Shown one piece after another: positions 20,272-46,556 of a stretch of DNA of 64,000 bases (position 1 is the stretch's first letter; every line of letters starts with the position of its first letter). The position numbers were made by a program, and so were the translations under genes. The notes beneath the pieces were generated by a model. It saw only the letters and a list, made by a program, of their open reading frames with translations. It was not told where the DNA came from and searched no databases. The stretch is from assembly GCA_027459785.1 (NCBI GenBank), contig DAIDGU010000053.1, positions 1 to 64,000 on the forward strand, written 5' to 3'. The DNA is from Ktedonobacteria bacterium (GTDB taxonomy: Bacteria > Chloroflexota > Ktedonobacteria > Ktedonobacterales > JACDGC01).

Positions 20272-20298
20272 TGGGTGAGCGTTGCTCCCATGCAAAAA

Positions 20299-21894: not shown

Positions 21895-23064
21895 CTAAAA
21901 GGCAGGGGATTCTCGGTTCCTCTCCCCGAAGGGAGGTTCCGCCCCTGGTACCCCAGGGACTCCCCGAAGGCGCTGCCCGCGCCGCTTGATCTCACACCCG
22001 CTGTTCTCATCACGGTCCATCACCAGCCCGCAGTGCGGACACACATGTGTCCGGACACTGAGCGATTTGGGAACCCGCGTGCCACAGCGACTACAATCTT
22101 GGCTGGTATACTGGGCAGGCACCGCATACACTTCACGACTGGCACTTGCAGCCTTGTGGTGAAGGATCGTCAGGAATTGCCCCCAGCCCGCATCACTGAT
22201 GCTCTTGGCCAGGTGGTGGTTCTTGACCATGTTGCGGATTTCCAGATCCTCATGATAGATGACATCGTTCTCGGTGATCAGCTTATTCGCTGCCTTGTGC
22301 TGATAGTCAAGCCGCTGGCGTGCCACCGTCTGATGCACCTTGGCGAGATCCTTGACGGCTTTCTTGCGGCGCTTGCTCCCTGGTTTACGGCGGGACACCT
22401 GCTTGGTGTGCCAGCGCACCTTGCGTTCAGTGGCACGGAACCAACGGGGATTCTCGACATGCTCGCCTTCACTGGTGGTCAGGAAGGATTGCAAGCCCAT
22501 GTCGATGCCCACTTCGTTGCCCGTGGGAGCCAGGTGAACACAGGGGACGTTCGCACAGGCAAAGGAGACGTACCAGCCATCGGCTTCGTGCCGGATGGTG
22601 ACGGTCTTGGGCGTGCCTTCCAACGGGCGCGACCAGATGACCTTCACTCGCCCGATCTTGCTCAACACCAGGAAGCCGTTATCCGTGGAAGCCCCATTGC
22701 CATATTGAGGATAGGTAAACGAGTGGTAACGGCGCTCATTCTTGAAGCGGGGGTAGCCGACCTTTTCGCCGTTCTTGACGCCTTGGAAGAACTTCTTGAA
22801 CGCCCGATCCAGACGCAAGATGACATCTTGCAACACTTGGGCTTGGATGTCCTTGTACTCCGGTCGCACCTCTTTGACGCCCGGCAGTTCGGCTTTTTGC
22901 TCGTAATAGCCGATACTGACCCGCCGCATTTTCCAGGCGTCGCGCCGTTCCTGCAAAGCAGCATTGTACAACTCACGGCACCGCGTCAGGGTCCACGCCA
23001 GTTGGCGTTCCTGTTCGGGCGTCGGATCAAGTTTGTACTTGAAAGCTTTGTGAACGGTCGGCAT
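21895..23064 (-). CDS. tnpB: TnpB/OrfB RNA-guided nuclease-family protein
   Basis: RuvC-like VGIDMGLQSFL, YHEDLEIRNM, DRDENSGCEI; zinc ribbon CSRCGTR...CPHCG. Confidence 0.9.
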   Translation of the reverse strand: MPTVHKAFKYKLDPTPEQERQLAWTLTRCRELYNAALQERRDAWKMRRVSIGYYEQKAELPGVKEVRPEYKDIQAQVLQDVILRLDRAFKKFFQGVKNGEKVGYPRFKNERRYHSFTYPQYGNGASTDNGFLVLSKIGRVKVIWSRPLEGTPKTVTIRHEADGWYVSFACANVPCVHLAPTGNEVGIDMGLQSFLTTSEGEHVENPRWFRATERKVRWHTKQVSRRKPGSKRRKKAVKDLAKVHQTVARQRLDYQHKAANKLITENDVIYHEDLEIRNMVKNHHLAKSISDAGWGQFLTILHHKAASASREVYAVPAQYTSQDCSRCGTRVPKSLSVRTHVCPHCGLVMDRDENSGCEIKRRGQRLRGVPGVPGAEPPFGERNRESPAF

Positions 23065-30023: not shown

Positions 30024-31883
30024 TCATCTAAAAAATGCCGTAAATTCTTGGTCCACCGTCCGCACCAGCACCGAGCGATCAAGATACTTGTTGCCGCGTT
30101 CACATGACGTTTCAGGTGCGAAGAGGCAGGCATGGCAGGCGGCGGCATGCAGGGCCAGCGCGTCACCTTGGGGATGATGTTCGGCACAGAGCGGATCAGA
30201 GGCGCACCATTGTATCTGTTCAAGTGCGCCGGCGAGATGCCGCTGTAATTCCGCCGCCTGGCCCAGATGTACCAGGCCACCCAAGGTGCCTTCGCTATCA
30301 GGTGCGGCGGTGTACATCAGGATGCCCGCCATTGGCCCGTCGTCGGCTTCGGGGTCCAGCGCATAAATGCGCTCGCTCAGGCTCGCGGCAGCGTAGCCGC
30401 AAGTCAGGATGACCTGGCGCATCAGGGCATGCGCGAAGGAATGCAGCAGTACATAGCGCAGGCCGGGGTAGGGCATATGCGTGGGATTGATCTGGCGCTG
30501 GCGGCACCAGGCCAATTGTGCCTCACGGAATTGCTGGCTCAGTTCATGGGCCGCCTGGTTCTCGATCAGCCAGCTTTGGACCGCCGACTCGTGGAATTGT
30601 AGGAAAATACCCTCGCCGCGCACTTCGTTGGCCGGCACCCAGGTTGTTTGCGTATGCGCCAAAGGTGCCCATTGCACCATCGTATCCTCAGATACCTCGG
30701 TCAGGTCGTCGGGGGCGATGATGCGCGTGAAGCCGGCCAGCGCGCTCACCTGGCGCAGCCGCTCGGCCACCACCACCCGCTCGATGGTGCCGGCGAATGC
30801 CCTTGGCACTTCCACGGCGCGAATGCGAAAATCACGATCTTCAGGGGCGTGGTCGGGATCAATGAAGAGTCGCCATTCTGGTGTTTTGAGGTTGCCGCCT
30901 TGTTCGTCCACCGGAGCAAAAACAAGTTGGCTGCGGGTGAGCGCATTCCAGATATCCGCATCGCTATACTCGGTGAAAGCAGATAAGCCGCCACCTTTGC
31001 GCATCATATACAAGTCGCGTTCGCTGTTCACTTCGTCCATTATGTCGGCATGCTGTTTGATGAGCTGTTCGAGATGATCCTCGGCCTTGGGCAGCGACAG
31101 AACGGTAAATCGGGTAGAGAACCAGCTATTCGACGCGCCGGAGGCGATCGTTTTCAAGGGTTGAAAACATGGCTTATCAGCAAAGCTCCGCAGGTGCGGC
31201 CAGCGCCCGCGACATTGGGGTAAGCTTGCTTGCGCAGCATCGCCAAAGGCATCGACAAGAAAACGCCCTGCCTCACAGGTTGCGCAGTAAATGAAAATAT
31301 CAGCGGCTTCACCGGAGGCTCCAGCTTCACGGAACGTAAGTTTGGCTTTGCAGGTGGTGGGGCCACGATGCACAAAGAAATCCCATGGAAAATCATCGAG
31401 GTGGCCGTGTTCACACGCCACCAAAAAGCGTGCAGGCAACACGTTGGGTGGCGCGGTGGCCTTGGAACAATTGGTATGTACATAGCGCGTCTTTTCGATG
31501 CGCACGGGGTCGTGTTTGAGCTGGAACAATTCCGATTCGAGCGGTGCGAGCAACTGACACTTTGGACACACCATCCAGCGGGGAAAGGTGGCCACAGGTA
31601 CGCCTGTGATGGCGTCACTGCCAAAGGCATCGTCGCTGGTGCCGGTTCGCTCCGGTTGGGCGGGTGGCTTATAAAGCGTCTGGACCTGCTCGCCCAGCGC
31701 CGTGCGCACAGCATGGAGCAGGCGTGGTTCCGTGATCATTTCCATGCGCTCGGTCTGCCAGTGATCCAGGCCCATCACCATCACGGAAATATTGGGCAGA
31801 TCGACGACCGCGCCCACGCCGAAGGTCGTCAGCAATTGACTGGGGCGCAACGCGCCCACCCGTCGTTTTTCCTTGCCATTCAT
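30024..31883 (-). CDS. drmB: DISARM-type DrmB (DUF1998-containing) protein
   Basis: MNGKEKRRVGALRPSQLLTTFGVGAVVDLPNISVMVMGLDHW...; C-terminal LRYVLLHSFAHALMRQVILTCGYAAASLSERIYA...GGLVHLG...C..H...CHACLFAPETSCERGNKYLDR; 4-bp overlap with drmA. Confidence 0.85.
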   Translation of the reverse strand: MNGKEKRRVGALRPSQLLTTFGVGAVVDLPNISVMVMGLDHWQTERMEMITEPRLLHAVRTALGEQVQTLYKPPAQPERTGTSDDAFGSDAITGVPVATFPRWMVCPKCQLLAPLESELFQLKHDPVRIEKTRYVHTNCSKATAPPNVLPARFLVACEHGHLDDFPWDFFVHRGPTTCKAKLTFREAGASGEAADIFIYCATCEAGRFLVDAFGDAAQASLPQCRGRWPHLRSFADKPCFQPLKTIASGASNSWFSTRFTVLSLPKAEDHLEQLIKQHADIMDEVNSERDLYMMRKGGGLSAFTEYSDADIWNALTRSQLVFAPVDEQGGNLKTPEWRLFIDPDHAPEDRDFRIRAVEVPRAFAGTIERVVVAERLRQVSALAGFTRIIAPDDLTEVSEDTMVQWAPLAHTQTTWVPANEVRGEGIFLQFHESAVQSWLIENQAAHELSQQFREAQLAWCRQRQINPTHMPYPGLRYVLLHSFAHALMRQVILTCGYAAASLSERIYALDPEADDGPMAGILMYTAAPDSEGTLGGLVHLGQAAELQRHLAGALEQIQWCASDPLCAEHHPQGDALALHAAACHACLFAPETSCERGNKYLDRSVLVRTVDQEFTAFFR

Positions 31884-34800
31884 GCCTGTGCCTCCGTCGG
31901 GGGAAGGGGTGCGACAAACCAGGGTCGCTCCGCATCGCGGGCCATATTCAGGTGGTCTTCCAAAATCAAACTGACCTCCGCTTCGACATCGCGGAGGGAA
32001 TCCAGGCAGGTAAACTGGTGCCAGCCCCGTTCCTGGGGATGATGAAGCAGAGCGCGCGTTACGCCGTCTTTGACGGCGGCATAGCCAAGTTGCGCGCCCC
32101 CCGCCAGCCCATCCACCAGATTTTGCCAAGCGCCCGTGCGTTTATCTAACTCGCTGCGCACCAGTTCAGCCATGTCACTATTCTCGGTGACGATGCGTGC
32201 GCGGGCTATGATCGCCGCGCAGTGTTCCACCAACTCCAGCGGATGTGCCGGCGCGTGTTCGGCTCCTGTGTTCGCCATCAAGCGATCATCCAGCAGGCGC
32301 GTGAGCGTCACCAGCAGGGCTGAGAGGCCGCGATCCAGGGCGCGCGGGGCAAAGGGGGTGACAGAAAGCGCTTCCACATGCGCATCGAAGGTGGCGTGAA
32401 AATGCTCGAAATGCTCGTAGTGCGACAGATCGCGCGGGCGGTTCCAGTTGAGAACGGTGCAGACCAGACTGGGGAGCGCACGCCCGACGCGCCCTGTCGC
32501 CTGGATGTATTCGGCGGTGGCTTTGGGTTGTCCTGCTACCACCATCAACCCCAGCCGCTGCACGTCCACGCCGACGGAGAGCATGTTGGTCGCCAGCAAC
32601 ACATCCACAGGCCGCGCGGCATACACGGTAGTGGGTTTGGCTGTGTGTAGCGCACCATCAAATGGTTTTTCTAATTGATCCAACACCTGGGGAATCTCAG
32701 TGGCAGAACGGCGCGAGGTCAATTCCTCGACTTTCAGCGTGGCACGGCGGGCCAAGCCACGGTCAGCCATGCGCTTCAAGCGGGTGTTTACGTCGTCATC
32801 CACCAGGCGCTTCATGCCGGCTAATTCGCGGACGGAATTGAAATAGCCGACGAGCGTCATCCAGGGATCGACCGCCTTGCCGTATTTCTCATACAGGCGT
32901 TGCGCGGCGGCCAGATAGGCGACATAGACGCGGATGAGCGTGCGCTTCAGTGTGTGGCCGGGCGCACAAATGCCCACGTAGCGCCGGCCTGGTAGTTCAT
33001 CTGACGGTGCTTGCTGGTGTGCGAAGAAATTATCGGCGGCATCCACGCCCTGCGGCGGAAAGATGTGTACCTGGCGCGCGAAGATCGCGTGGATCTGTTC
33101 TGGCGCGTGGCGCACGGTGGCGGTGGAAGCGACGACCTTGGGCCGCACCGGCTGCCCCTGGTGGTCCCACGTCGCCAGGCGATCCACTGCCGTTTCATAG
33201 AGGCCGACGAGCGTACCCAGCGGCCCGCTGATGAGGTGCAATTCATCCTGGATGATGAGATCTGGTGGACGCAAGGGAGCGCGCGGTTCCGTCCGGACGC
33301 CGGGCAGGTCGCCCAAACGGGGATGCGCCGTGCAACACAGATCGGGTGGCAGACCGGCGGCCACATAGCCATGCCGCGCGCACCAGCCACTCACGCGGCC
33401 AAAGAGCATCCCCGTCGCGCCGTTCCAGGGCATCTGAGCGAATTTATCGACGGTGGCGATGAGCAGCGCGGGCAACAGGCGGTAAATATCTTCGTCCACC
33501 ACCAGCGCGGGCAACCCGTCTTCCGGTGCCAGGCGCTGGCTGAACGGGCAGTCGCCGGTGGCATCGCCACAATAGATGATCGTGCGTCGCCGCCCGCTTT
33601 TGTGGGTATAGGCTTTGATGTCGCGGCTGGGGTCAATGGCGGTGCCGCACCAGGGGCAATTCGGCAATTGCGCGGGCGTTCCCAGCCCGCCGATGGTGCT
33701 GCCGCGCTGCCAGGTGCCGTGTTCGCGGTTTTTGAGAGCAGTATCGCTCTGGTCGTTGGTGTTGGGCGTGGTGCGGCTGCCCACCCACAGCCCCAGGCGA
33801 AAGGGCGTCGTCCCCCAGCGTGCAGGATCGTCGCGCCGCAGCATTTCGCAGGCGCAGATCAGCGCCGTCGCGCGCTGGAATTGTTGCAGTGTCAGCAGGC
33901 GCAGGGTATAGCGCATCAGCACGGCCACGCCATCGCCGCCACTGGGCGCGCCTTGCCGCCGGCGCAACGCCAGCGTATAGGCCGTCAGGCCCAGGTACGC
34001 CTCAGTTTTGCCGCCGCCGGTGGGGAACCAGAGCAGATCCGCGATGGCATCCGGCGAGGCGCTGCGGTCGGGGTGGAGCGGATCGGTCAGGCCGGGCAGA
34101 TTGAGCAGGATGAAGGCGAGCTGGAAGGGGCGCCATGACCGACTCAGTGGCACGTCGGCATCTGGTGGCGCTGGCTTGCCCTGGCGCACGGCTTCGGCCT
34201 GGATGGTGTGGATGCGTTGTTGCCACATGGCGGCGTTCATGAAGCGAAACGCTTCCGCCGCCAGTGCATCGCGCCCCAGCAGATCAATGCCGGCCTGGAT
34301 GCGCGCGAGGGCGGTGCGGCAATTGGCGAGGGTGGCCTGGGCGGTCACGGCGAATTCGGCCAGCCCGTCTGTGCCAGCGGCGACGCGGGTGGCCTGGTGG
34401 GCGATCCAGGCGGCATAGGCGCTGGTGAGCGGCGCGAGCAACGCCGACAAGGCGGCGAGATCGCATTCGGCCAGCGCGCGCATATCCATTTCCAGCCCGG
34501 CGAGATCGGCCACATCCGGCAGGGTGCGGCCCACGTCATATTCCGGCACCACGCGCGTGCCGACGGTCAGGGCGCGCGTGGGATCAGCGCCGGCGCGGGT
34601 GACATGCACGCCCACGCCATGCCCCACGGCGAATTCCACCTGCCGGCGGAAGCGCAGCTTCAGCGCAGCCTCTTCGCTGAGCGGATCATCTGGCGGCGGG
34701 GCGAAGGATTGCGGCACGTGGCGGCTGAAGATAGCCGCACCATCCGGCGACCGTGCGCTCAATTCTGGCTGAAAAAGCCAGGCCGTATCTTTATCGATCC

Positions 34801-35458
34801 GGCGCGGCAGTTGTTCATTGACAAGATGCAGGGTGATGATCCAGGTGCCATCCAGGCGGCGCACCAGACCGCGCACCTTCACATCCGGTGCGGCGGGGTC
34901 GGGGGCGAAAGGTGTGATGGGACCGCGCTTGATGGGGATGATCTGCGCGCCGCCCATCGGCTGGCGGTGCCAGGGCGGGCGCTGCTTTTCCCCAAGGGGC
35001 ATGTCGCGGGCGCGGTCATAGCGCCCCCAGGCGGCGCGCACTTCCAGTGCCGTTGCCTCACCTGCGACGCAACACGAAAAGCCGAACGATGACGGCAAAA
35101 AGCCCTGGCTGGCGGGGAGTTTCACGTCAACTTCGTCGTCATCGTCATCCGCCCCGTCTGGCCCGGCCACGGCCAGCGCATCATCCGCCAGTTCCAGCGC
35201 CAGCCCGTCGGGCGGCTCCGGTGGCGCAGCGGGGGCTGGTGTATCCGCCTCCTCTGCGGCATCGCGGCGGGGCGGGGCCAACATCCCGACGAGATAGCGT
35301 TCATAGACGTGGCGCTCCGTGACGATTTCTTCCGCGCCCCCGGCTGGCCCCAGCAATTCCTGCACCACCAGCCGGTGCAATTCGTCGCGTAGCGCGCCCG
35401 CGCCGGGGATCGCTTCCTGCAAGGCCGTGTTGGTGGGTGGGGTCTGGGGATCGTCCAT
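31880..35458 (-). CDS. drmA: DISARM-type DrmA helicase
   Basis: LLWFPTGGGKTEAYLGLTAYTLALRR, IIQDELHLISGPLGT, VVASTATV, VDVLLATNMLSVGVDVQRLGLMVVAGQPKATAEYIQATGRVGR; pairing with drmB. Confidence 0.85.
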   Translation of the reverse strand: MDDPQTPPTNTALQEAIPGAGALRDELHRLVVQELLGPAGGAEEIVTERHVYERYLVGMLAPPRRDAAEEADTPAPAAPPEPPDGLALELADDALAVAGPDGADDDDDEVDVKLPASQGFLPSSFGFSCCVAGEATALEVRAAWGRYDRARDMPLGEKQRPPWHRQPMGGAQIIPIKRGPITPFAPDPAAPDVKVRGLVRRLDGTWIITLHLVNEQLPRRIDKDTAWLFQPELSARSPDGAAIFSRHVPQSFAPPPDDPLSEEAALKLRFRRQVEFAVGHGVGVHVTRAGADPTRALTVGTRVVPEYDVGRTLPDVADLAGLEMDMRALAECDLAALSALLAPLTSAYAAWIAHQATRVAAGTDGLAEFAVTAQATLANCRTALARIQAGIDLLGRDALAAEAFRFMNAAMWQQRIHTIQAEAVRQGKPAPPDADVPLSRSWRPFQLAFILLNLPGLTDPLHPDRSASPDAIADLLWFPTGGGKTEAYLGLTAYTLALRRRQGAPSGGDGVAVLMRYTLRLLTLQQFQRATALICACEMLRRDDPARWGTTPFRLGLWVGSRTTPNTNDQSDTALKNREHGTWQRGSTIGGLGTPAQLPNCPWCGTAIDPSRDIKAYTHKSGRRRTIIYCGDATGDCPFSQRLAPEDGLPALVVDEDIYRLLPALLIATVDKFAQMPWNGATGMLFGRVSGWCARHGYVAAGLPPDLCCTAHPRLGDLPGVRTEPRAPLRPPDLIIQDELHLISGPLGTLVGLYETAVDRLATWDHQGQPVRPKVVASTATVRHAPEQIHAIFARQVHIFPPQGVDAADNFFAHQQAPSDELPGRRYVGICAPGHTLKRTLIRVYVAYLAAAQRLYEKYGKAVDPWMTLVGYFNSVRELAGMKRLVDDDVNTRLKRMADRGLARRATLKVEELTSRRSATEIPQVLDQLEKPFDGALHTAKPTTVYAARPVDVLLATNMLSVGVDVQRLGLMVVAGQPKATAEYIQATGRVGRALPSLVCTVLNWNRPRDLSHYEHFEHFHATFDAHVEALSVTPFAPRALDRGLSALLVTLTRLLDDRLMANTGAEHAPAHPLELVEHCAAIIARARIVTENSDMAELVRSELDKRTGAWQNLVDGLAGGAQLGYAAVKDGVTRALLHHPQERGWHQFTCLDSLRDVEAEVSLILEDHLNMARDAERPWFVAPLPPTEAQA

Positions 35459-35654
35459 CGAATGCACGCCTCCTGTGCGATGTCAGCTTGTGTTGCTTAT
35501 TGTATAGCACGCGGCTTTCTGGCGCTATAGCCCGTTTGGGGTAACGTGCAAAACATGAGTTCGTTCTTCATCAGGATGACAGGGACTTCTTGGCCCTGCA
35601 CGGCGAGCATTTTCTGCGCTATAATGAACACACATAGAGGAAAGGGGCGGTGGT

Positions 35655-35737
35655 ATGCAACGTCACTACAAAGCAGCCCCGATCGTCGAGGCGCTCTGCG
35701 ATTTTCGGTTCGATGAGCGCGGCCCATGGGATCAAAC
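35655..35737 (+). pseudogene. Truncated TIGR04255-like gene (N-terminus only)
   Basis: Hand translation MQRHYKAAPIVEALCDFRFDERGPWDQTV resembles the N-terminus of TIGR04255 proteins (K.PPIVEA..E.RF); homology stops where AT-rich sequence begins. Confidence 0.45.
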
Positions 35738-35784
35738 AGTACGCAGCTGTAGTTTTACAAATGTTTACTTTGATAAAAAAAACC

Positions 35785-35813
35785 TTGTGCAAGTAGGTTC
35801 AAATTGGTAGAAT
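35785..35813 (+). promoter_or_regulatory. Putative sigma70-type promoter for the XRE-ImmA-UBL island
   Basis: TTGTGC - 17 nt - TAGAAT, about 80 nt upstream of ATG 35893/35881. Confidence 0.4.
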
Positions 35814-35880
35814 TGAATCACCGTTGTGCCTGATTTCATGTTAAACATGCAACTGCAAAAAAGTCATTAAAAGTAAAAAG

Positions 35881-36246
35881 GTGGGTCAATACATGGAAAA
35901 GGTGTATTTTGATGTAGCAGCGTTCTACGCTGCACTAGATGCACAAAGACGTGTACTTAATATGACTTGGAAGCAAGTTGCCGCTGTTACTGGCGTAAGT
36001 GCCTCTACGCTAACCAGAATGGCGCAGGGTAGGCGACCGGATGTTGATGGCCTTGCCGCTCTATCAAAGTGGGCTGGTCTCGATCCCGCTGCATATACAC
36101 GCGGTGGTAGTGAGCAGCAAGGGCAACCTGAACCTATGGCAATGATCTCCACCTATCTCCGAAGCGATCCTCATTTGACTCAGGAGGACGCACAAGCATT
36201 AGAGGAAATTATTCGTGCTGCTTACCAGCATCTCCGAAAGGATTGA
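35881..36246 (+). CDS. XRE-family transcriptional regulator
   Basis: WKQVAAVTGVSASTLTRMAQGRRPDVDGLAALSKWAGLDPAAYTR. Confidence 0.8.
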   Translation: MGQYMEKVYFDVAAFYAALDAQRRVLNMTWKQVAAVTGVSASTLTRMAQGRRPDVDGLAALSKWAGLDPAAYTRGGSEQQGQPEPMAMISTYLRSDPHLTQEDAQALEEIIRAAYQHLRKD

Positions 36247-36811
36247 GGCGTTGCCATTTAGACGAGGCTTCAAGACGGAAGCAAACGAAATCGCACAAGA
36301 GGTGCGAAGCGAACTTCACCTGAGACCGATTGACCCACTCGACGTTTGGGCATTGGCGCGGCATCTTGAGATCCCCGTTCACCCAATGTCTGTATTACGC
36401 GAAAGGGCAGCTTCGGCCTTTCATCACTTCTCTCATGTCAGTCCGTCTGTTTTTTCAGCTGTCACTGTCTTCGACGGACCAACCAAGAGAGCAATTTACC
36501 ATAATGATATCCATTCACCGGAGCGTCAAGCCAGCAACCTGGCTCATGAACTGGCTCATGGACTACTTCTACATCCGCCAACTCCAGCTATTGATGATCG
36601 GGGTTGTCGCGAGTGGGATCAGACGATCGAAGATGAAGCGAATTGGCTCGGAGGTGTTTTGCTCATTACCGAGCAGGCGGCATTATTGATCGCACGAAAA
36701 GGGCTTTCGCTCAGCAAAGCGGCTGCCATCTACAGGGTAAGTGAACAAATGGTTCGTTTTCGATTGAACGTGACCGCAGCACAGCAACGAGTCAGGATAG
36801 CTCGGCGCTAG
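36215..36811 (+). CDS. ImmA/IrrE-family metallopeptidase
   Basis: ASNLAHELAHGLLLHPP (HExxH) ... IEDEANWLGGVLLI, AAAIYRVSEQMVRFRLNVT; typical partner of XRE regulators. Confidence 0.85.
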   Translation: MLLTSISERIEALPFRRGFKTEANEIAQEVRSELHLRPIDPLDVWALARHLEIPVHPMSVLRERAASAFHHFSHVSPSVFSAVTVFDGPTKRAIYHNDIHSPERQASNLAHELAHGLLLHPPTPAIDDRGCREWDQTIEDEANWLGGVLLITEQAALLIARKGLSLSKAAAIYRVSEQMVRFRLNVTAAQQRVRIARR

Positions 36812-37011
36812 CCCTTCTCAATGTGCATCGTGTCAAGAGAACCACTTTATGTACGCCCTTTCTATCGTGGTGAAGATACTTGGTACTTTATCATAATCCT
36901 CATGAGTGCCTCTTCTGAGTATCTCACGCTTCCGATACCGTACTTCTGTTGGAGAAAAGACTATTACCAGCCTTTTGCTGCCATTGCAAAATCCTACAGT
37001 TGATTGCGAAT

Positions 37012-37040
37012 TTGCAATTGACCATCGAATGTGCAATAAT
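37012..37040 (+). promoter_or_regulatory. Putative promoter upstream of the ubiquitin-like gene
   Basis: TTGCAA - 17 nt - AATAAT. Confidence 0.4.
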
Positions 37041-37096
37041 AAAGCAGAGGCATAGCATAGAACTACAAACCAATAGAAAGGTACCCATTTGCCGGT

Positions 37097-37375
37097 ATGA
37101 CGGACGTTACCACTGTCGCTGAAGAAGCTGACCACCTCAAAGCAATCACCATCATCGTGAACGCTGCACTGAAGACGGTGCCAACACGTGAGGTGTCATA
37201 CGACGAAGTTGTTGCACTTGCTTACCCAACACCCCCATCACCAAACACCATTTTCACGGTTACGTACCGAAAGGCTGCAGGACAGCCTCACGACGGCAGC
37301 CTCGTTGAAGGTCAATCGGTAAAAGTTAGGGAAGAGGGAACCATTTTCAATGTCCGAGCAACTGGTAAATCGTAG
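37097..37375 (+). CDS. Ubiquitin-like protein (multiubiquitin-domain type, single copy)
   Basis: AITIIVNAALKTVPTREVSYDEVVALAYPTPPSPNTIFTVTYRKAAGQPHDGSLVEGQSVKVREEGTIFNVRATGKS; followed by a ThiF gene with overlapping frame. Confidence 0.75.
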   Translation: MTDVTTVAEEADHLKAITIIVNAALKTVPTREVSYDEVVALAYPTPPSPNTIFTVTYRKAAGQPHDGSLVEGQSVKVREEGTIFNVRATGKS

Positions 37376-38525
37376 TCCCGACCTGCGGCGTCTCCAAGAA
37401 GAGGGCTACGATATTGAGGTCCGGTCGAATTGCTTGTTGGTTAAGCAAGTTCCCTATGTGACGGCTGGTAGAATGGTAGAACGCGGCATCCTGGTGTCCG
37501 AATTATCAACCAGTGGCAGCGTCACTATCCCTCCAAATACGCACGTGGTATCGTTTGTTGGATCGATTCCTTGCGATAATCATGGCCGTGAACTCGATAA
37601 AATTATCCACCAACGGGCGGCAGTCCCTCTCGGTGGGGACATCACGGCAAGTTGTACGTTCTCAAGCAAGCCTGCTGAGGGATATCAGGACTATTACGAA
37701 AAGATGACGGCCTACATCAACATCCTGCTCGGCTTTGCCCGCGCAATCGATCCAAGTATCACAGCGCAAACATTCCCTCCGTTGAGAGCCGATGCCAACG
37801 ATTCCGTGTTTCGATACGTGGATTCAGCGTCGAGCCGGGCGCAGATAAGCGCAATTACGGAGAAACTCAAACTTGGCAAGATAGCAATAATCGGCCTCGG
37901 AGGGACTGGATCGTACATCTTGGACCTTATCACCAAGACTCCCATTGAGGAAATCCACTTATACGACGGCGACGTATTTTATACTCACAATGCGTTTCGC
38001 GCACCTGGCGCGGCCTCCATTGAAGAACTTGACGCGATGCCAAAAAAGGTTGATTACTTTCAACGAAAGTATGACCCCTTGCACCGAAACATCATTCCGC
38101 ATCCCGTTTACATCGATAAAACGAACGTTGACGAATTGAGAGACATGAGCTTTGTGTTTCTCGCAATGGACACCGGTCCAGCCAAGAAGCTCATCATTGA
38201 AAAGCTGGGAGAATTCGGTGTATCATTCATTGATACAGGCATCAGCGTTTTTCAAGCTGCCGGTTCGTTGGCGGGTATCGTTCGAACGACAACGAGCGAT
38301 CCAGCACACAGACAGCACGTGCGGAAGCGCATCTCTTTCGCTGAAGAAGATGATGACGCATATGAGCAGAACATTCAGATTGCCGATCTCAATGCGCTCA
38401 ATGCGATCATGGCCGTCATCAAATGGAAGAAGCTGTTCGGCTTTTACATCGACCTTGAACATGAATATTCAAGCACGTACACTGTCGATGGAAATCATCT
38501 GCTTAATGAGGACCAGCCGAAATGA
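37350..38525 (+). CDS. ThiF/E1-like ubiquitin-activating-family protein with DUF6791-like N-terminus
   Basis: IAIIGLGGTGSYILDLITKTPIEEIHLYDGDVFYTHNAFRAPG...SFVFLAMDTGPAKKLIIEKL. Confidence 0.85.
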   Translation: MSEQLVNRSPDLRRLQEEGYDIEVRSNCLLVKQVPYVTAGRMVERGILVSELSTSGSVTIPPNTHVVSFVGSIPCDNHGRELDKIIHQRAAVPLGGDITASCTFSSKPAEGYQDYYEKMTAYINILLGFARAIDPSITAQTFPPLRADANDSVFRYVDSASSRAQISAITEKLKLGKIAIIGLGGTGSYILDLITKTPIEEIHLYDGDVFYTHNAFRAPGAASIEELDAMPKKVDYFQRKYDPLHRNIIPHPVYIDKTNVDELRDMSFVFLAMDTGPAKKLIIEKLGEFGVSFIDTGISVFQAAGSLAGIVRTTTSDPAHRQHVRKRISFAEEDDDAYEQNIQIADLNALNAIMAVIKWKKLFGFYIDLEHEYSSTYTVDGNHLLNEDQPK

Positions 38526-38980
38526 AGCACACCGCAATCGACCATGAGTTTGTTGAATTCATGCCGTCCGAGCTAAGAGAAGGAACGCTTTACGTCTCGG
38601 TCCAATTTGCGACCGCGGTGCATAAATGCGCTTGTGGATGCGGTAATAAAGTGGTGACGCCTTTTAGCCCCGCTGACTGGCAGCTATTTTTTGATGGTGA
38701 TACTGTTTCACTCACGCCCTCTATCGGAAATTGGCAATTTCCATGCCGCTCGCATTACTGGATCAGATCGAACAGAGTTAGATGGGCAGAGGATTGGACT
38801 CCAGAACAAGTTGCCGCAGGAAGGCTTCGTGAAGCACGTGATCACGAACGGTATTTTGCGGGCAGACAATCGCCTAGCAGAACTGCCGATCAAATGGATG
38901 CTGAAGTGCAACCAGAACGACGACCCGGTAAAAAGCTTATCGCTAGACTTTTACATTGGCTGGGGCTGAAAAGCGACTGA
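38522..38980 (+). CDS. DUF6527-like Cys-rich protein
   Basis: HKCACGCGNKVVTPFSPADWQLFFDGDTVSLTPSIGNWQFPCRSHYWIRSNRVRWAEDW; 4-bp overlap with the ThiF gene. Confidence 0.75.
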   Translation: MKHTAIDHEFVEFMPSELREGTLYVSVQFATAVHKCACGCGNKVVTPFSPADWQLFFDGDTVSLTPSIGNWQFPCRSHYWIRSNRVRWAEDWTPEQVAAGRLREARDHERYFAGRQSPSRTADQMDAEVQPERRPGKKLIARLLHWLGLKSD

Positions 38981-38985
38981 TCAGA

Positions 38986-41900
38986 TCATTCCTTGCTCGC
39001 TGCGTGCTTGCCAGCGAACAGCCCCCCGTCGTTTGCCGGCGCCCGGCCCGGCTTGCCCGCGCCGCCTTTTTTGCGTGGCACGGCGTGCAGTCCCGCCGCC
39101 ACTTCCGCCGCGTAGCGCGCGTGATTCAGCCGCAGCAGCCGCGCCAGCATCTCGCGCCGCGCCGCCGGGCTGATGGTGAAGCGCATGCCCTGCTTCGTCT
39201 GGTGGAAACCGTGGGCCAGATCCATCTCGCCCCAGCCATAGGCCAGCGCCACCGCCCGATCCATCGCCGCATGCAGCTCGCGCAGCCGCGCGATGTCGCC
39301 CGCCCGTTCGCCCGCATCGTGCATGCGGTTATAGGTCTTCGTCAGCCCCTCTTGCCGCCCCTGCATGATCCCTTGCCGGTGCGCGTAATACGCCGCGCCG
39401 ATCTCCTCCAAATCATCCATGCTTTCGGGAAACGGAAAGGTCTCGAAGCAATCGGATGGGGTAAAACGAAGTGTTTCACCTAAACTACTACCAAATTGAA
39501 ATGCCCAGATTTCTCCTATTCCACTTGCTAGCAGGCAGAATACATTTTTCTTACTGCTTGCTATTACTCCTACCCCATGACTGTAAACAAGCGAAGGTTT
39601 TACAAAAGCATAGGCAGCATATTTTGTATGGAGCGTAATCACCAGCACCCGCTCCATCCCCGCGATGGTCGCGTAGAGGGCGGGACGCTTATCCCAAAAT
39701 TTCCAAAAATCATATTCATGTATTTGCTTGCCTCTCGCTATAATCCCATCTCTAAAAGGTTTTACGCGCTCACGTAGTACTGCTAAACAATCAGGGTATT
39801 CCTCAGCGCGGGCCAGGGGCCAGTCGTGGAAGTTGATGACCCAACGGCTGGGTGATTGATCAGGACGTGAATTGAGATCATCACCATTGAGGTATGGGAA
39901 CAACACATCACGGTTGCGGGGGTCACGTTCTATTAGGTCGGCAGCTTCATCCATCGATAATATGAAACCTGTTCCCAACACATAAGAACCAATGAAAGAT
40001 TTACCAACGTTGGATACAAGGGAAAAGGGAGAACTTGATAACCCATCTTTTTCGGCTAAAAATGAGGTGATTCCAACGACAGGTTTGTTTTCGAGAATAT
40101 AAATTCCATTCCATGTTCCACGACATAGCCAAACTTCTGCTATTTCCAGGGCAGAATCTCCAGGCCACGGCATGCTAGAAATTGCTCTAAAGAAATCCAC
40201 TCCTAGGTTTTCTAATTGTTCAAGTCCAACTTTTCGTGTTCCTCCCTGAGCTATAGTATTTGTTGCTAATAATCCTGCATTTCCATTTTGGCGTAAAAGT
40301 GTTCCAGATCTTAAGAAAAAATAAGAACACAAATCAGCACTTCCTTTCCATCCATTTCCAATAACTAAAGCGATATATTCAAAGTAGTTATCCCCTAAAA
40401 CCGTGCTAATCTTTTTCCCGCCCATGAACGGCGGATTGCAGAGGATGGCGTCGAAGCCGGGGTTGCCGTCGCGGGCCACGGGATCGAAGACCTCCGGAAA
40501 CTCCAGCGGCCAATGGAAGGGGTGGCGGCCCGCCAGCAACGCGGCGGCGCGCTGCTGCAACGATTGGCGTTCGGCCAGGGTGGCGCGCAGGTGGTCGACG
40601 GTGAAGGGGTGGGCGAGCTGTTCTTCGGCGGCGGCCATCACCACGGCATAGTCACCTTGCAGGGTTTGGCGCAGGCGGTCGCGCTCCTTGGGTGTTGCGG
40701 CCAGCCGCGCGGCCACCAGCAGATCGGCCCCCAGGCGCACCAGCGCCGTCGCCGCTTCGGCTTCGGCCAGCAGGCGCGCTTTTTCGCGCGCGTCGCGCAC
40801 ATCGCGCACCGGCTGCCGCGCAATCAGTCGCCGCCGCCGTTCGGCCTCATCCAGCGCCCGACGGATCGGCTCGCTCAAGAAATCCAACTGCGCCACGCCG
40901 GGATCCAGCGACCACGCCCGCAACTGATGCAGATCGGCCCCCAGCAGCGAATCGCCGCACCGCAGCGCGTGGTCCAGAAAGGTGAAGGGCAGGTCGCGCG
41001 CCATCGTGGCGATCCACAGCGACAGCTTCGCCATCTCCACCGCCATCGGGTTGCGGTCCACGCCATACAGGCAGCGGTCGCAGATCAGGCGCAGCGCCAA
41101 ATTATCGCGCTCTTTGGTATCAGTCGGAAAATTGATTGTGCTGGATGGCAACGAAGATCCGACGATCGTTGATGCACCGATTTTAGTGTATTCACTTACC
41201 CAAAGGGTTTGCACCCGTTCGCCATGTTCAGCATTGATAATGAGTGAACCATCGGGCGCGATGAAGTGTGCCGCTTCGTGTACTGGTGGTAAATCTTGCG
41301 CCGCCATCTCCCAGGCTTCCAGCAGGCGCTCCGACAGATAGCGTGCGGCCTGCACCAGGAACGCGCCCGATCCCATCGCCGGGTCGCAGACGCGCAGGGC
41401 CAGGATCTCGCGCGGCGGACGCAGGTGCCACTGATCTTCGGGCAAGCCCTCGGCGGGGCCATGATACACCAGCGGGTCCAGCGTGTGGCGCACGATCTCC
41501 GCCGTCAGGCGGCGCGGGGTGTAGTGCGTGCCGGTGCTGCGGCGATCTTCCCCGGCGGTGACATAGATGCTGCCAGGGACAAAGACCGCCGGGCGGCCCG
41601 CGAAATCGGTCAGCAGCAACGCGGCGAAGGGTTGGATGCGCGCCACCAGGGCGGCGTCGTTGTCGCACGCCACGCGCAGCCGCGCCAGTTCATCCGGGGT
41701 CAGGGGCGTGGCCAGACCCTTGCGCAGGGCGTGCGCCGTCTTGCCGGTGCGATCTTTCAGCAGCTCTACCAGCGCGTCTGCGCCACGGTCGCGGGCGGCT
41801 TCCAGTTCGGCCAGCGGCACCTCTGGCACGGCCTCGGCCCTGCCCGCCAGGCCCAGCACGGCGTCGTCTGCTCGCCGCGCAGTGTGGTCCAGCAGACCTT

Positions 41901-43200
41901 CATAGACGTGGCCGATCTGCTCCACATCCAGCGCGCGAAAGGTCACGCGCTGTGGCTCCGCCGTGCCGCGCTCATGAATCTCTTGCAACGCCTTCAGCAG
42001 ATAGAGCGTCGTGCGGTTGTCAATCGGCAAGGGATCGGCGGGCGTGGCACGCCACGTTGTCCCCGGCAATCGCCCTTCCAGAAAGGGATAGGCGTCGGGA
42101 TCGAACAGATCGCCGCCATAGGCGCGCAGGGGCATAGCCTCGTGGTTCACGCCGCCAAAGACTGCGCGAAAGGTCGCCAGCAAGCGTCCCCAGGCATCGC
42201 TGAACCGCTCCAGCCGCTCCTCGCCATGCTGGTCGGCGTCTTCCTGCAACTGCGCCCGCATGGTGGCGACGGCGTAATAGCGATCATACAGATCGTTGCC
42301 GCGCAGCAGTAAGGCGCGCTCCTCGGCATAAAAGAGGAACACCAGGCGCATCATCACCGTCAGCGCGGCGCGATAGAGGTCTTCCGGCGCAATGCCCGCC
42401 AGCAAGGCGCGGTCGCGGTCTTTATCGATCTCATCGATGCGGCGCAACAGCACCTGGATGGCACGGCGCACCTGGTCGCCCAGCGTCAGCGCCACCGTTT
42501 CGTGTTCCCGCGCGCCTTCCGCCAGCAGGTCGGCCAGCGCCTCGCCGGGTGCCGCGCCGCTGATGCGCCGTAGCCCCACCAGGCTGCGCCAGGCGCGCAA
42601 CGTCTCTGGCTCTTCCAGCCACAGTTCGGCGTACCACGTGATGTAGCTGGCCGTCGCGTCTTTGGCGTCGCGCGGCATGCGGACGAGCATCCACGCATCG
42701 CCGTTGGTCAGCAGCCCCAGTTCCACCCCTGCCGCCCGCAACAGATCCGCCATGCGTTGGGCGGGCGAGGCCTTCCACGGTGAACCCGCCAATGGGCGTT
42801 CCAGATCTTGCCCCGGCGGCACCAGCAGCACGGCCAGGCATGGTATGCCGCCAGCCTCCCGGCCCGGCGGCGTCACCAGCGCCAGGGTGGGGGCCAGCGT
42901 CGCGCCATACTGCGCCACGCGCAGCGTCAGGTTTGGTGGCAGGGCCGCGCCCTCGCGCAGCAGATCGTCGCGCCAGTCCAGCACCTCGCGCAGCACGAAG
43001 CGCAGCCACTGATAATGGATGGCGGGGTCATGCCCAGCGGCCTCCCACTCCGCATAGGCCCCGCGCAAACGACGCAACACCTCCGGCGGCGTGGCAGCGA
43101 AGCCCTGGGGGAAGACGCGCTCCAGCGTTTTGCCATCGATGAATGGGCCGTTGACATCCAACAAGCGCAGGATTTCGGCGAAGGCGCGGGTGGTTGCCAT
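38986..43200 (-). CDS. drmMI: Class-1-DISARM-type N6-adenine methyltransferase DrmMI (Eco57I-like)
   Basis: RLTAEIVRHTLDPLVY, LRVCDPAMGSGAFLVQAARYLSERL, FDAILCNPPFMGGKKI; adjacent to drmD. Confidence 0.8.
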   Translation of the reverse strand: MATTRAFAEILRLLDVNGPFIDGKTLERVFPQGFAATPPEVLRRLRGAYAEWEAAGHDPAIHYQWLRFVLREVLDWRDDLLREGAALPPNLTLRVAQYGATLAPTLALVTPPGREAGGIPCLAVLLVPPGQDLERPLAGSPWKASPAQRMADLLRAAGVELGLLTNGDAWMLVRMPRDAKDATASYITWYAELWLEEPETLRAWRSLVGLRRISGAAPGEALADLLAEGAREHETVALTLGDQVRRAIQVLLRRIDEIDKDRDRALLAGIAPEDLYRAALTVMMRLVFLFYAEERALLLRGNDLYDRYYAVATMRAQLQEDADQHGEERLERFSDAWGRLLATFRAVFGGVNHEAMPLRAYGGDLFDPDAYPFLEGRLPGTTWRATPADPLPIDNRTTLYLLKALQEIHERGTAEPQRVTFRALDVEQIGHVYEGLLDHTARRADDAVLGLAGRAEAVPEVPLAELEAARDRGADALVELLKDRTGKTAHALRKGLATPLTPDELARLRVACDNDAALVARIQPFAALLLTDFAGRPAVFVPGSIYVTAGEDRRSTGTHYTPRRLTAEIVRHTLDPLVYHGPAEGLPEDQWHLRPPREILALRVCDPAMGSGAFLVQAARYLSERLLEAWEMAAQDLPPVHEAAHFIAPDGSLIINAEHGERVQTLWVSEYTKIGASTIVGSSLPSSTINFPTDTKERDNLALRLICDRCLYGVDRNPMAVEMAKLSLWIATMARDLPFTFLDHALRCGDSLLGADLHQLRAWSLDPGVAQLDFLSEPIRRALDEAERRRRLIARQPVRDVRDAREKARLLAEAEAATALVRLGADLLVAARLAATPKERDRLRQTLQGDYAVVMAAAEEQLAHPFTVDHLRATLAERQSLQQRAAALLAGRHPFHWPLEFPEVFDPVARDGNPGFDAILCNPPFMGGKKISTVLGDNYFEYIALVIGNGWKGSADLCSYFFLRSGTLLRQNGNAGLLATNTIAQGGTRKVGLEQLENLGVDFFRAISSMPWPGDSALEIAEVWLCRGTWNGIYILENKPVVGITSFLAEKDGLSSSPFSLVSNVGKSFIGSYVLGTGFILSMDEAADLIERDPRNRDVLFPYLNGDDLNSRPDQSPSRWVINFHDWPLARAEEYPDCLAVLRERVKPFRDGIIARGKQIHEYDFWKFWDKRPALYATIAGMERVLVITLHTKYAAYAFVKPSLVYSHGVGVIASSKKNVFCLLASGIGEIWAFQFGSSLGETLRFTPSDCFETFPFPESMDDLEEIGAAYYAHRQGIMQGRQEGLTKTYNRMHDAGERAGDIARLRELHAAMDRAVALAYGWGEMDLAHGFHQTKQGMRFTISPAARREMLARLLRLNHARYAAEVAAGLHAVPRKKGGAGKPGRAPANDGGLFAGKHAASKE

Positions 43201-46200
43201 CAGCGCACCTCCGTCTGGGCCAGGCCACGCGGCACCAGCAGCGTCACGGCCAGGGGAAAGCAGCGCGCCTGCACATGGGCATAGCGGTGGCGGATGGCGA
43301 CCGTCTCGCGGGCGATCTCCGCTGGAATGGCTTCCGCGCGCTGGCGCAGATAGTCGGCGTCGCGCTCATATTGCTCGCGTTCGTCATGGCTGAAGAGTTG
43401 CAATTGCTGCGGCCCCTGCGGCTGGCGCACCTGGGCCATGATGCTCGTCTGCAATTCCGTGAGAATCGTCGTCATGTCGCTGACCTCCTGCGCGGCGCGT
43501 TCATCCAGCAAACGCCCGATGCTTGTGACGCGCTCATCCTGGCGGACGGTCAGGGCATCCAGCAGGGGCGGGCGCAGCCGCGGCCAGTGTTCCGCCAGCC
43601 ATGCGCCAAAGCTGGCGGGCGCGGGATCGGGCAAGGCTGCCGCCAGGGCACGTTCCACCTCGCCGACGCTCAGCCGCGCGAAGCGCCCCTCGCGCAAGCG
43701 TCCCCCCGCCGCGATCACCTCTTCGTGCAGCCGCTGCTGATCGCCCCCCAGCACCAGCAAGCGCGCGTGGATCACCAGCGCGGGCGTGGCGATGATGCCT
43801 TCTGGCACCAGCCGCGCCGTGGCACGGTGCAGCCGTGGCGCGTCGCCCGCGGCCCACACCTCCGCGCGCAACAGGCGCAGCGCCATCTGCACCAGCGGGT
43901 GATTCAGGTGCGCCAGCACCACGTCATCCCGTCCGCGCGCCAGGCTCTCATCAAAGACGATGGGGCGCAGTTGGTGCGTATGGGGGTGCGCCAGGCCGAC
44001 GCTGCACTGCGCCCAACTACCCCCGAACTGGGGCAGATACCAGACCGGAATAGCGGGATGCGTCCCCGTCGCGTCGCGCAAGGTCGCGGGGCGCAGGGGT
44101 GGCTGCCCGGCGAGATCCAGCGCGATCTGCACCACCGCCGCCACGTTTTCCGGCTCCAGGTGTTGGGCGGTGCGCGTCTCGCGCAGTTGCGCCATCAGAC
44201 GCTCGATGCGCTCGCGCAGGTTGCGCTCGAAGGCGAGCATCTCGCGTGATTTGCGGGCGCGATCCTCCACCGGTTCCGTCATCAGGCGGCGCTGCCCCCG
44301 GCCCAACATCGCCTCTTCCACCTGCCGCGCGATCACCGGCCCCACGCTGCCCAGATCCTCGCGGATTTGCTCCACCTTTTCCGCCACGCGCATCAGAAAT
44401 TCCAGGTCGTCATCCAGCGCGTCGCCGTCCGCCGTCGTCAAAGCCATCGCCGCCGCGCGTCGATAATGCGCGCCCACGAAATGGCACACCTGCACCACGC
44501 TTGCCCGCTGGCCGTGCCGGTCAATGCGTCCGTTGCGCTGCTCCATCCGGTTCGGGTTCCATGGGATCTCGTAATGGACCAGGCGCGCGCAATGATTCTG
44601 GAGGTCGATCCCCTCGGAGGCGGCATCGGTCGCCAACAGAATGCGCACCGGGTCCAGCGTGGGATGCGCCTGAAACGCCGCTTTGATGCGCTCGCGCTCC
44701 TCGGTGGACATGCCGCCATAGAGCAACAGTACGCGCCCGCCCGCCGTCAGGCCCGCCGCGGCCAGCAGATCAAGGAGCCATTTCTGCGTATCCCGATATT
44801 CGGTGAAAATGATGGCGCGCGCGTCGCCCCAGTCGCCGCTGGGACGCAGTTCGCGGGTCAGCCAAGCCAGCAACGCTTGCGCCTTGCTATCCGGGTGCCG
44901 CTCCGCAGCTTCTGCCCAGACTCCTAGCTCATCCAGCATGCGCGTTTCAGCCGCCGTGGGCGCGCGAAAGAGCCGGGCGGATGCCGCCAGCGCATCGCCT
45001 GTAGCCTCATCAAACGCTGCCTCATCACCGAAATCTTCTTCGGCGCGGTCCAGTTGCCGCTGCAACAGATGGGGCGCGGGGGACGCGCCCCTCGTGCGGG
45101 GTCGCGCTTCGTCCAGCGACACACGGTGCCGCGCCAGTGTGGCGGCAAAGGCGGCGGGCGACGAGAACAGCCGCTTTTTGAGCAACTTCAGCACGAACTC
45201 GGTGGCGATGCGTTCACCCTCGCTTGCCGGTGCCTCGGTTTTCAGGCGGCTGTCGCCATAGGCGCGCAACAAGGCAAACGCCGTGCGCTCCGACGGCGTG
45301 TATGCCACTGGCAGCGCCTCAAGCTGGCGACGCGGAAAGCGCGGGGTGCCGTCCCAGTTGGGCGGCAACTCGGTTTTCAGCCGGCGCACCATCACCGCGC
45401 CCAGTTGCTCGCGCCTGGGCGGCACGCCGCGCGCGAAGCGCTGCCCATCCAGCACTTCCAACAGCGCCGTGAAGCTGTTGACATAGCCGTTGTGGGGCGT
45501 GGCCGAAAGGAACAGCTTATGCTCGAAGTGCGGCGCGATACGCCGGAGCGCCTGGGTGCGCTGCGAGTCCACCGCGTAATTGCCCTGCCCGGCGGGCGCG
45601 ACATTGTGCGCCTCGTCGAGAATCAGTAGATCGAAGCGGCGGGGGAAGGAGGGTTCACCCTCACCAGGCAGCACCGCGCTCATCAGCCGCATGGGCCGCT
45701 CGCGCTTGAGATAGTCGAACGACGTGATCAGGCGCGGAAAGCTGGTCCAGGGATTCACATGCAAGCCGCGTGTGCGTCGCAGCCAGCGCAGATACTCGGC
45801 ATCCACGATGCGGCATTCCAGGCCGAATTTGTCGCGCAATTGGTCGCGCCACTGAATTTGCAGTGACGCCGGGCAAACGACCAGCAACGTGCGGACGCGG
45901 TGGCGCAACAGCAATTCCTGGCACACCAGCCCGGCTTCGATGGTTTTGCCCAACCCTACATCGTCGGCGATCAGCAGATTGACGCGCGGCATGCGGATGG
46001 CGCGTACCACCGGATCAAGCTGATAATCTTCCACCACGACGCCACTGCGAAATGGTGCCTGCACAGCGCGTGTATCTGCCGACGAGGCCGCACCCCAGCG
46101 CACGGCATCCAAAAAGGCATCCAGCCGACGCGGATCATCGAAGCCGTCGGGCGTGAGGTCGCGCATCTGCTCAGCTGGTCGCGCGCCCGGTTCGACCTCC

Positions 46201-46388
46201 CAAATCACCTGTAACTCGTCGCCAAAGGCATCATCTTCGATGGAACTGAGCGTCACCAGGTGTTGTGGAACTTCCTGGGGATGCAGCTTATCTTCGGGTA
46301 GCGTGTTCTGCTGGACCTCGACCACCACAAAACGGCGCTGGCGCACCGCGACAATGCTTCCCTGTTCCGGTGGGGCGATCTGCGGCAT
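43200..46388 (-). CDS. drmD: DISARM-type SNF2-like helicase DrmD
   Basis: LLIADDVGLGKTIEAGLVCQELLLRHRVRTLLVVCPASLQIQWRDQL, LLILDEAHNVAP, SATPHNGY, AIIFTEYRDTQKWL, ATDAASEGIDLQNHCARLVHYEIPWNPNRMEQRNGRIDRHGQ. Confidence 0.85.
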   Translation of the reverse strand: MPQIAPPEQGSIVAVRQRRFVVVEVQQNTLPEDKLHPQEVPQHLVTLSSIEDDAFGDELQVIWEVEPGARPAEQMRDLTPDGFDDPRRLDAFLDAVRWGAASSADTRAVQAPFRSGVVVEDYQLDPVVRAIRMPRVNLLIADDVGLGKTIEAGLVCQELLLRHRVRTLLVVCPASLQIQWRDQLRDKFGLECRIVDAEYLRWLRRTRGLHVNPWTSFPRLITSFDYLKRERPMRLMSAVLPGEGEPSFPRRFDLLILDEAHNVAPAGQGNYAVDSQRTQALRRIAPHFEHKLFLSATPHNGYVNSFTALLEVLDGQRFARGVPPRREQLGAVMVRRLKTELPPNWDGTPRFPRRQLEALPVAYTPSERTAFALLRAYGDSRLKTEAPASEGERIATEFVLKLLKKRLFSSPAAFAATLARHRVSLDEARPRTRGASPAPHLLQRQLDRAEEDFGDEAAFDEATGDALAASARLFRAPTAAETRMLDELGVWAEAAERHPDSKAQALLAWLTRELRPSGDWGDARAIIFTEYRDTQKWLLDLLAAAGLTAGGRVLLLYGGMSTEERERIKAAFQAHPTLDPVRILLATDAASEGIDLQNHCARLVHYEIPWNPNRMEQRNGRIDRHGQRASVVQVCHFVGAHYRRAAAMALTTADGDALDDDLEFLMRVAEKVEQIREDLGSVGPVIARQVEEAMLGRGQRRLMTEPVEDRARKSREMLAFERNLRERIERLMAQLRETRTAQHLEPENVAAVVQIALDLAGQPPLRPATLRDATGTHPAIPVWYLPQFGGSWAQCSVGLAHPHTHQLRPIVFDESLARGRDDVVLAHLNHPLVQMALRLLRAEVWAAGDAPRLHRATARLVPEGIIATPALVIHARLLVLGGDQQRLHEEVIAAGGRLREGRFARLSVGEVERALAAALPDPAPASFGAWLAEHWPRLRPPLLDALTVRQDERVTSIGRLLDERAAQEVSDMTTILTELQTSIMAQVRQPQGPQQLQLFSHDEREQYERDADYLRQRAEAIPAEIARETVAIRHRYAHVQARCFPLAVTLLVPRGLAQTEVR

Positions 46389-46556
46389 GGCGTTCCTCGT
46401 TGGCGTGATATCATCTGGCACCCCATCATAGCATAGATGCAGCGTAGAGGGAAGCACCTGTCAGGCTAATCCAGGACTTTTGCAGAGGGACAAAGGCCAA
46501 GGTGACCATTTGGTGCAGGCACTTGGACGAGATGCGTCAATCACCACTTATATACA

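Follow-up and report, generated by a model that had tools for sequence, protein, structure and literature searches.

A ubiquitin-like protein, E1 and DUF6527 module between drmMI and drmA of a class 1 DISARM locus in a Ktedonobacteria bacterium

Gene content and edges of the island

We analysed the first 64,000 nucleotides of contig DAIDGU010000053.1 from a Ktedonobacteria bacterium (assembly GCA_027459785.1; this whole stretch is called the window), in which five plus-strand genes, hereafter the island, lie between drmA and drmMI, two minus-strand genes of a class 1 DISARM locus. A first-pass annotation had described these five genes as lying in AT-richer DNA, and this holds: Pfam confirms the families, and the GC difference is clear, with a GC content of 0.495–0.518 and 0.39–0.55 at third codon positions (GC3) in the island genes versus 0.657 in drmA, 0.619 in drmMI and 0.665 in drmD, where GC3 is 0.70–0.79. 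The first gene (35881..36246, +) encodes an Xre-type helix-turn-helix (HTH) repressor (HTH_3, 8.7e-7; no PADLOC match) that may have a CapH-like role, and the second (36215..36811, +) a CapP-like metallopeptidase of the M78/ImmA-IrrE kind with a HELAH motif (PF06114, Peptidase_M78, 1e-15). After a putative operator/promoter (37012..37040, +; TTGCAATTGACC-N6-TGTGCAATAAT) come the genes for a 92-aa ubiquitin-like protein (UBL; 37097..37375, +) with one Multi_ubiq domain (PF14452, 1.3e-17) and the tail ...NVRATGKS, for an E1-like enzyme (37350..38525, +) composed of DUF6791 (aa 10–159) and a ThiF adenylation domain (aa 170–304), and for a DUF6527 protein with a candidate zinc site (38522..38980, +; PF20137, 1.2e-26). 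The E1 scores 2e-54 with PF20590 (DUF6791) and 1.1e-9 with PF00899 (ThiF) in Pfam and 9.4e-165 with PRK06153 in NCBIfam; Pfam gives no JAB match in it, DUF6791 and ThiF being found instead. All four families expected in 37097–38980 were matched, and the proposed ubiquitin-like nature of the 92-aa protein is borne out by its family, whose profile matches a solved multi-ubiquitin structure (PDB 9cd2, 1.6e-22). The description of these genes as a UBL-E1-DUF6527 module that carries an Xre/ImmA switch and is nested within DISARM is supported.

The frames had been reported to overlap, and they do so between the Xre and M78 genes, between the UBL and E1 genes, where 26 nt (37350..37375, +) encode both the UBL C-terminus and the E1 N-terminus, and between the E1 and DUF6527 genes; the M78 and UBL genes, however, are separated by 285 nt, a gap that holds the UBL promoter region. 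The whole interval between drmMI and drmA measures 3519 nt. At its right edge the DUF6527 and drmMI genes converge, with stop codons 5 nt apart, and at its left edge a drop in GC (0.55 to 0.28, near 35740) comes directly after a short frame (35655..35737, +; MQRHYKAAPIVEALCDFRFDERGPWDQ...) that matches positions 2–23 of NCBIfam TIGR04255 (E=0.057, below the cut-off). The island start had been placed at 35655, which is the start of this truncated TIGR04255-like frame and not that of the Xre gene. The match covers about the first 22 residues and is weak and in the expected register; the frame is apparently a gene relic severed by the island. Terminal repeats around the island were weak only (for example 24 nt with 75% identity, at 35586 and 39066), and no clear target-site duplication was found at its ends.

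Recurrence of the module

A genome scan together with a plasmid search yielded 87 other loci from many phyla, of which all carry the E1, 86 the DUF6527 gene and 85 the UBL, and the module often adjoins CapH/CapP-like or WYL regulators. The module is not unique to this assembly, recurring in about 85 of the 87 loci. The survey of genomes suggested by the first-pass annotation succeeded for the UBL-E1-DUF6527 module but not for its DISARM context: neither drmA nor drmB was found in the flanking DNA fetched for the 87, up to 10 kb, or in the surroundings of two extra Chloroflexota loci, one of them already among the 87 (L147 being the contig of L111). Relatives carry DISARM without the module. 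Since the module occurs without DISARM and DISARM without the module, the two are normally independent, and the combined or jointly mobilised unit proposed by the first-pass annotation stays hypothetical.

Within the Chloroflexota, DUF6791 was present in three of 400 sampled genomes, the window's own included, and a search of 100 relatives for the E1 family gave nothing beyond one weak generic match, as a recent arrival would lead one to expect. Prok-E2_B had no match in the window's own genome. A different arrangement was seen in one relative (G036; L143:169-2988, −), where an E2-E1 fusion gene beside a nucleotidyltransferase-like gene resembles CBASS type II.

Conserved features of the UBL, E1 and DUF6527 proteins

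The UBL varies in size from about 90 to 250 aa across loci, and its end follows a T-x-K/R-S pattern: 83 of 84 loci have a final Ser, the remaining one an Ala, and the overlap with the E1 gene is exactly 26 nt in 80 of the 84, across phyla. In an alignment of 65 E1 sequences the adenylation residues G182xGGxG187, D206, D208, N214, R217 and K233 are invariant and D274 is kept in 62. The ThiF domain has no conserved Cys column (column 272 is Cys in 43 of 65 and Ala in the window), while C75 of DUF6791 is conserved in 62. An AlphaFold2 model of the E1 (pLDDT 92.7) gave Citrobacter BubCD as its best Foldseek match (5.5e-15, TM 0.47 of query), followed by UBA5, PaaA, MccB and ThiF. In the DUF6527 protein H34, C36, C40, C75 and H78 are present in all 58 members compared and C38 in 55, with a Cys/His pattern of C36-x3-C40-x34-C75-x2-H78; its model (pLDDT 84.8) had no PDB match with E<0.8.

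The spacing of H65 and C75 prompted us to consider DUF6791 as an E2-like domain, a possible but so far unsupported assignment: a Pfam search with 55 members returned DUF6791 and chance matches only. A DUF6791 profile found nothing credible in PDB and no BubCD chain, and HHalign comparison with three human E2s (approximate sequences) was negative, with a positive control that was weak too. The modelled strand order shows no clear correspondence to a UBC fold.

These features allow, as a tentative reading to which we give somewhat less than even weight, a non-canonical chemistry in which a Ser-ending UBL may be adenylated by an E1 lacking a conserved adenylation-domain Cys and transferred to targets without a recognisable E2, via DUF6791 Cys75 or the HxCxCxC site of DUF6527, the UBL tail and the E1 start being locked together by the 26-nt overlap. 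The T-x-K/R-S end within that overlap and the E1 without a conserved ThiF-domain Cys are details worth attention, and the module poses the biochemical question of how an E1 acts on a UBL whose final residue is serine and not glycine.

A putative switch upstream of the UBL operon

In the window, the CapH/CapP arrangement is present, with the M78 peptidase beside the HTH repressor upstream of the operon. CapW or CapH together with CapP also adjoin 219 of 544 Bub operons (PMC13373217), and CapP, like PprI, is activated by single-stranded DNA (ssDNA; PMC10904395). We surveyed up to two open reading frames upstream of the UBL at each locus, 110 in total, and found 28 Peptidase_M78 proteins, 26 PADLOC capP matches (best 4.5e-66), 13 capH matches (best 8.5e-33) and four WYL proteins; Xre homologues adjoin the module in 13 other loci. 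The closest relative is locus L051, whose E1 is 67% identical to the window E1. The motif TTGCAATTGAMC-N6-TGTGCAATAAT, which lies at 37012–37040 in the UBL promoter region of the window, is also present in L051, identically spaced, between the divergent Xre and UBL genes, with none expected in shuffles. This shared promoter motif supports, without proving, that Xre controls the UBL operon.

Relation to known ubiquitin-like systems

Bil systems consist of a ubiquitin-like protein, an E1, an E2 (BilB) and a JAB deubiquitinase (BilC). The island shares the first two components; however, it lacks genes for an E2 and for a JAB deubiquitinase, and its UBL does not end in glycine. Membership in Bil is not supported.

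A closer parallel is found in the type 6e polyUbl operons predicted in 2006 (Iyer, Burroughs and Aravind; PMC1779556), in which the UBL has one to three beta-grasp domains and of which a subset combines an E1 whose JAB is replaced by an uncharacterised N-terminal domain with a zinc-finger protein. The module agrees with them in the UBL, the JAB-less E1, a C-x3-C pattern in the candidate zinc-site protein and the sporadic, mobile distribution, and differs in that its UBL is single-domain, it lies within DISARM and an inactive E2/RWD gene is absent. Compared with the type 6e zinc finger, C-x(3)-C-x(35-38)-H-x(2)-C, the DUF6527 site has an equal number of ligands, with the last pair reversed and a spacer shorter by one. 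Judged by its sequences, the UBL-E1-DUF6527 module therefore matches an already known but barely studied kind, the JAB-less type 6e. The structure matched by the UBL family, 9cd2 (the multi-ubiquitin domain protein ZDHYS365), has a TDKS-type C-terminus as well; it is, however, 222 aa long with extra sequence before the matched domain, whereas the window UBL is one domain.

The Citrobacter BubCD structures (9ea4, 9ea5 and 9ea8; Ye et al. 2026, cited in PMC13373217) represent the closest solved fold to the E1, and Bub operons have regulators of the same kinds, CapH/CapP and CapW. The fold match, however, spans only a part of BubCD, taken as its E1 part; the N-terminal domain of the window E1 is DUF6791 and not the N-terminal part of BubCD, and a DUF6527 gene is present. 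The island holds no BubB candidate gene, the BubB sequence not having been compared with DUF6527. The module is not a strict Bub system.

The drmMI-drmA interval and the host DISARM

The host locus has drmD (43200..46457, −; PADLOC DrmD, E=0, 1379 bits), drmMI (38986..43200, −; PADLOC DrmMI, E=0, 1614 bits), drmA (31880..35467, −; NF038325, 1318.6 bits against a cut-off of 950) and drmB (about 30024..31937, −; NF038324, 674 bits against 240) in the order of class 1 DISARM, from which it differs by the opposite-strand cassette between drmMI and drmA and by the lack of drmC at the locus. No drmC match was found in the window or adjoining drmB, and the best match in the window's own genome scored 67 bits, below the cut-off of 133; drmC is dispensable for DISARM (PMC9142583).

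In Chloroflexota relatives the drmMI-drmA interval ranges from 0.06 to 8.1 kb and its cargo is varied. Nine loci (L025-L031, L033 and L035) carry there a co-directional gene for a UvrD-type helicase of about 700 aa, with a weak ParE/RelE-like N-terminus where scanned, and the fetched stretches of these nine gave no drmC match; conversely, drmC is present and the UvrD-type gene absent in L032, L037, L038 and L043. The UvrD-type gene is possibly an undescribed DISARM component. The window locus has neither drmC nor the UvrD-type gene, the latter having only weak matches elsewhere in the host genome. The slot of L028 has an additional RRXRR-HNH gene, and DISARM slots on plasmids hold XisHI, GIY-YIG or an ATPase with an O-methyltransferase, or are empty. 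In L032 the slot carries, on the reverse strand (L032:5071-6961, −), an RloB/AbiLii gene and an AbiLi-like ATPase gene, along with candidate defence nucleases; this AbiLi/AbiLii-like pair is a second example of a defence system inside another. The drmMI-drmA gap is thus a recurrent general cargo slot.

The host drmMI itself is mosaic. Residues about 901–1300 (window 39301–40500), with an MmeI target-recognition domain, have a GC3 of 0.35–0.51, whereas GC3 outside them is 0.76–0.87 nearly throughout, which suggests that the low-GC3 stretch is an exchanged specificity domain.

Origin and proposed working of the cassette

We consider it probable that the island is a self-contained cassette that was horizontally acquired into the drmMI-drmA slot and provides switch-induced UBL conjugation independently of DISARM. 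In this model, the CapH/CapP-like switch and the UBL-E1-DUF6527 module would have entered a class 1 DISARM slot in reverse orientation and displaced or followed older cargo, to which the TIGR04255 relic and the absence of the usual UvrD-type gene may testify. Xre would repress the UBL promoter near 37012–37040 until the M78 peptidase, activated by ssDNA as are CapP and PprI, cleaves the Xre protein upon phage replication or damage. The induced E1 would adenylate the UBL C-terminus and the UBL would then be joined to a target, the candidate zinc-site protein DUF6527 possibly serving as acceptor or targeting subunit, presumably in an antiphage role, while DISARM would function independently of the cassette and without drmC. 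Since the gap takes cargo of varied kinds, opportunistic insertion is the simpler account, and a permissive accessory slot that received the cassette gives the simplest reading. The cassette belongs to a known operon kind and sits in a new, unusual place.

Several observations weigh against this model. Pfam identifies no E2, E3 or deubiquitinase gene among the island's five proteins, and the UBL does not end in glycine. The window Xre has no capH match in PADLOC, and the score of the M78 protein with capP is modest (7.1e-8). The Xre and M78 genes are co-directional with the UBL gene and divergent from drmA, while nearly all relatives with an Xre/M78 pair have the pair divergent from the UBL. 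The nested case was seen once only, phage protection by Bub operons is not demonstrated (PMC13373217), and no experimental work on the module was found in the searchable literature.

A functional coupling of island and DISARM, in which the control of the Xre/M78 switch would extend to the divergent drmAB promoter, or in which DISARM proteins would be modified by the UBL, giving a layered defence, could draw on the 413-nt intergenic region common to Xre and drmA, on the division of DISARM by the insertion into drmD-drmMI and drmA-drmB transcription units, and on the AbiL-like pair of L032, which is reverse-oriented in the same slot. However, no copy of the UBL operator motif was found near drmA, the nested instance is single, and module and DISARM occur apart as described above; we regard coupling as possible but unsupported, and as unlikely. 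Similarly unlikely, in our estimate, is that the E1 chemically modifies the UBL C-terminus by MccB-like nucleotidylation or thiocarboxylation, the product being a modified small protein and no target being tagged. MccB and ThiF are among its fold matches, the UBL nearly always ends in Ser and never in Gly, and the genes for E2, E3 and deubiquitinase are missing from the island; yet the E1 of Bub heads the fold matches, a DUF6527 gene with its conserved Cys/His site nearly always accompanies the UBL-E1 pair, and the size of the UBLs, about 90 to 250 aa, with up to three domains (Iyer 2006), suits a protein tag better. An assembly error, finally, to which the draft state of the genome (88 contigs) and the abrupt change of composition at the island might point, is highly improbable: the contig is 168,401 bp long and the locus therefore not at its end, both flanking DISARM genes run unbroken to a few nucleotides from the junction, a TIGR04255 gene is apparently truncated on the left side, and relatives carry comparable cargo at the same place.

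The locus links an under-studied, widespread bacterial ubiquitin-like module both with DNA-damage-type regulators and with a defence locus, and indicates the drmMI-drmA junction as a slot for a second defence system within DISARM.

Other genes in the window

Beyond the DISARM locus, the window encodes a DUF6094 methyltransferase/helicase (8696-13186, −) and a DnaG-like primase with a CHC2 zinc finger (19123-20295, −), gene kinds that are frequent on plasmids and integrated elements. An IS605 OrfB/TnpB-like gene with a Cas12f1-like TNB domain lies at 21895-23064 (−).

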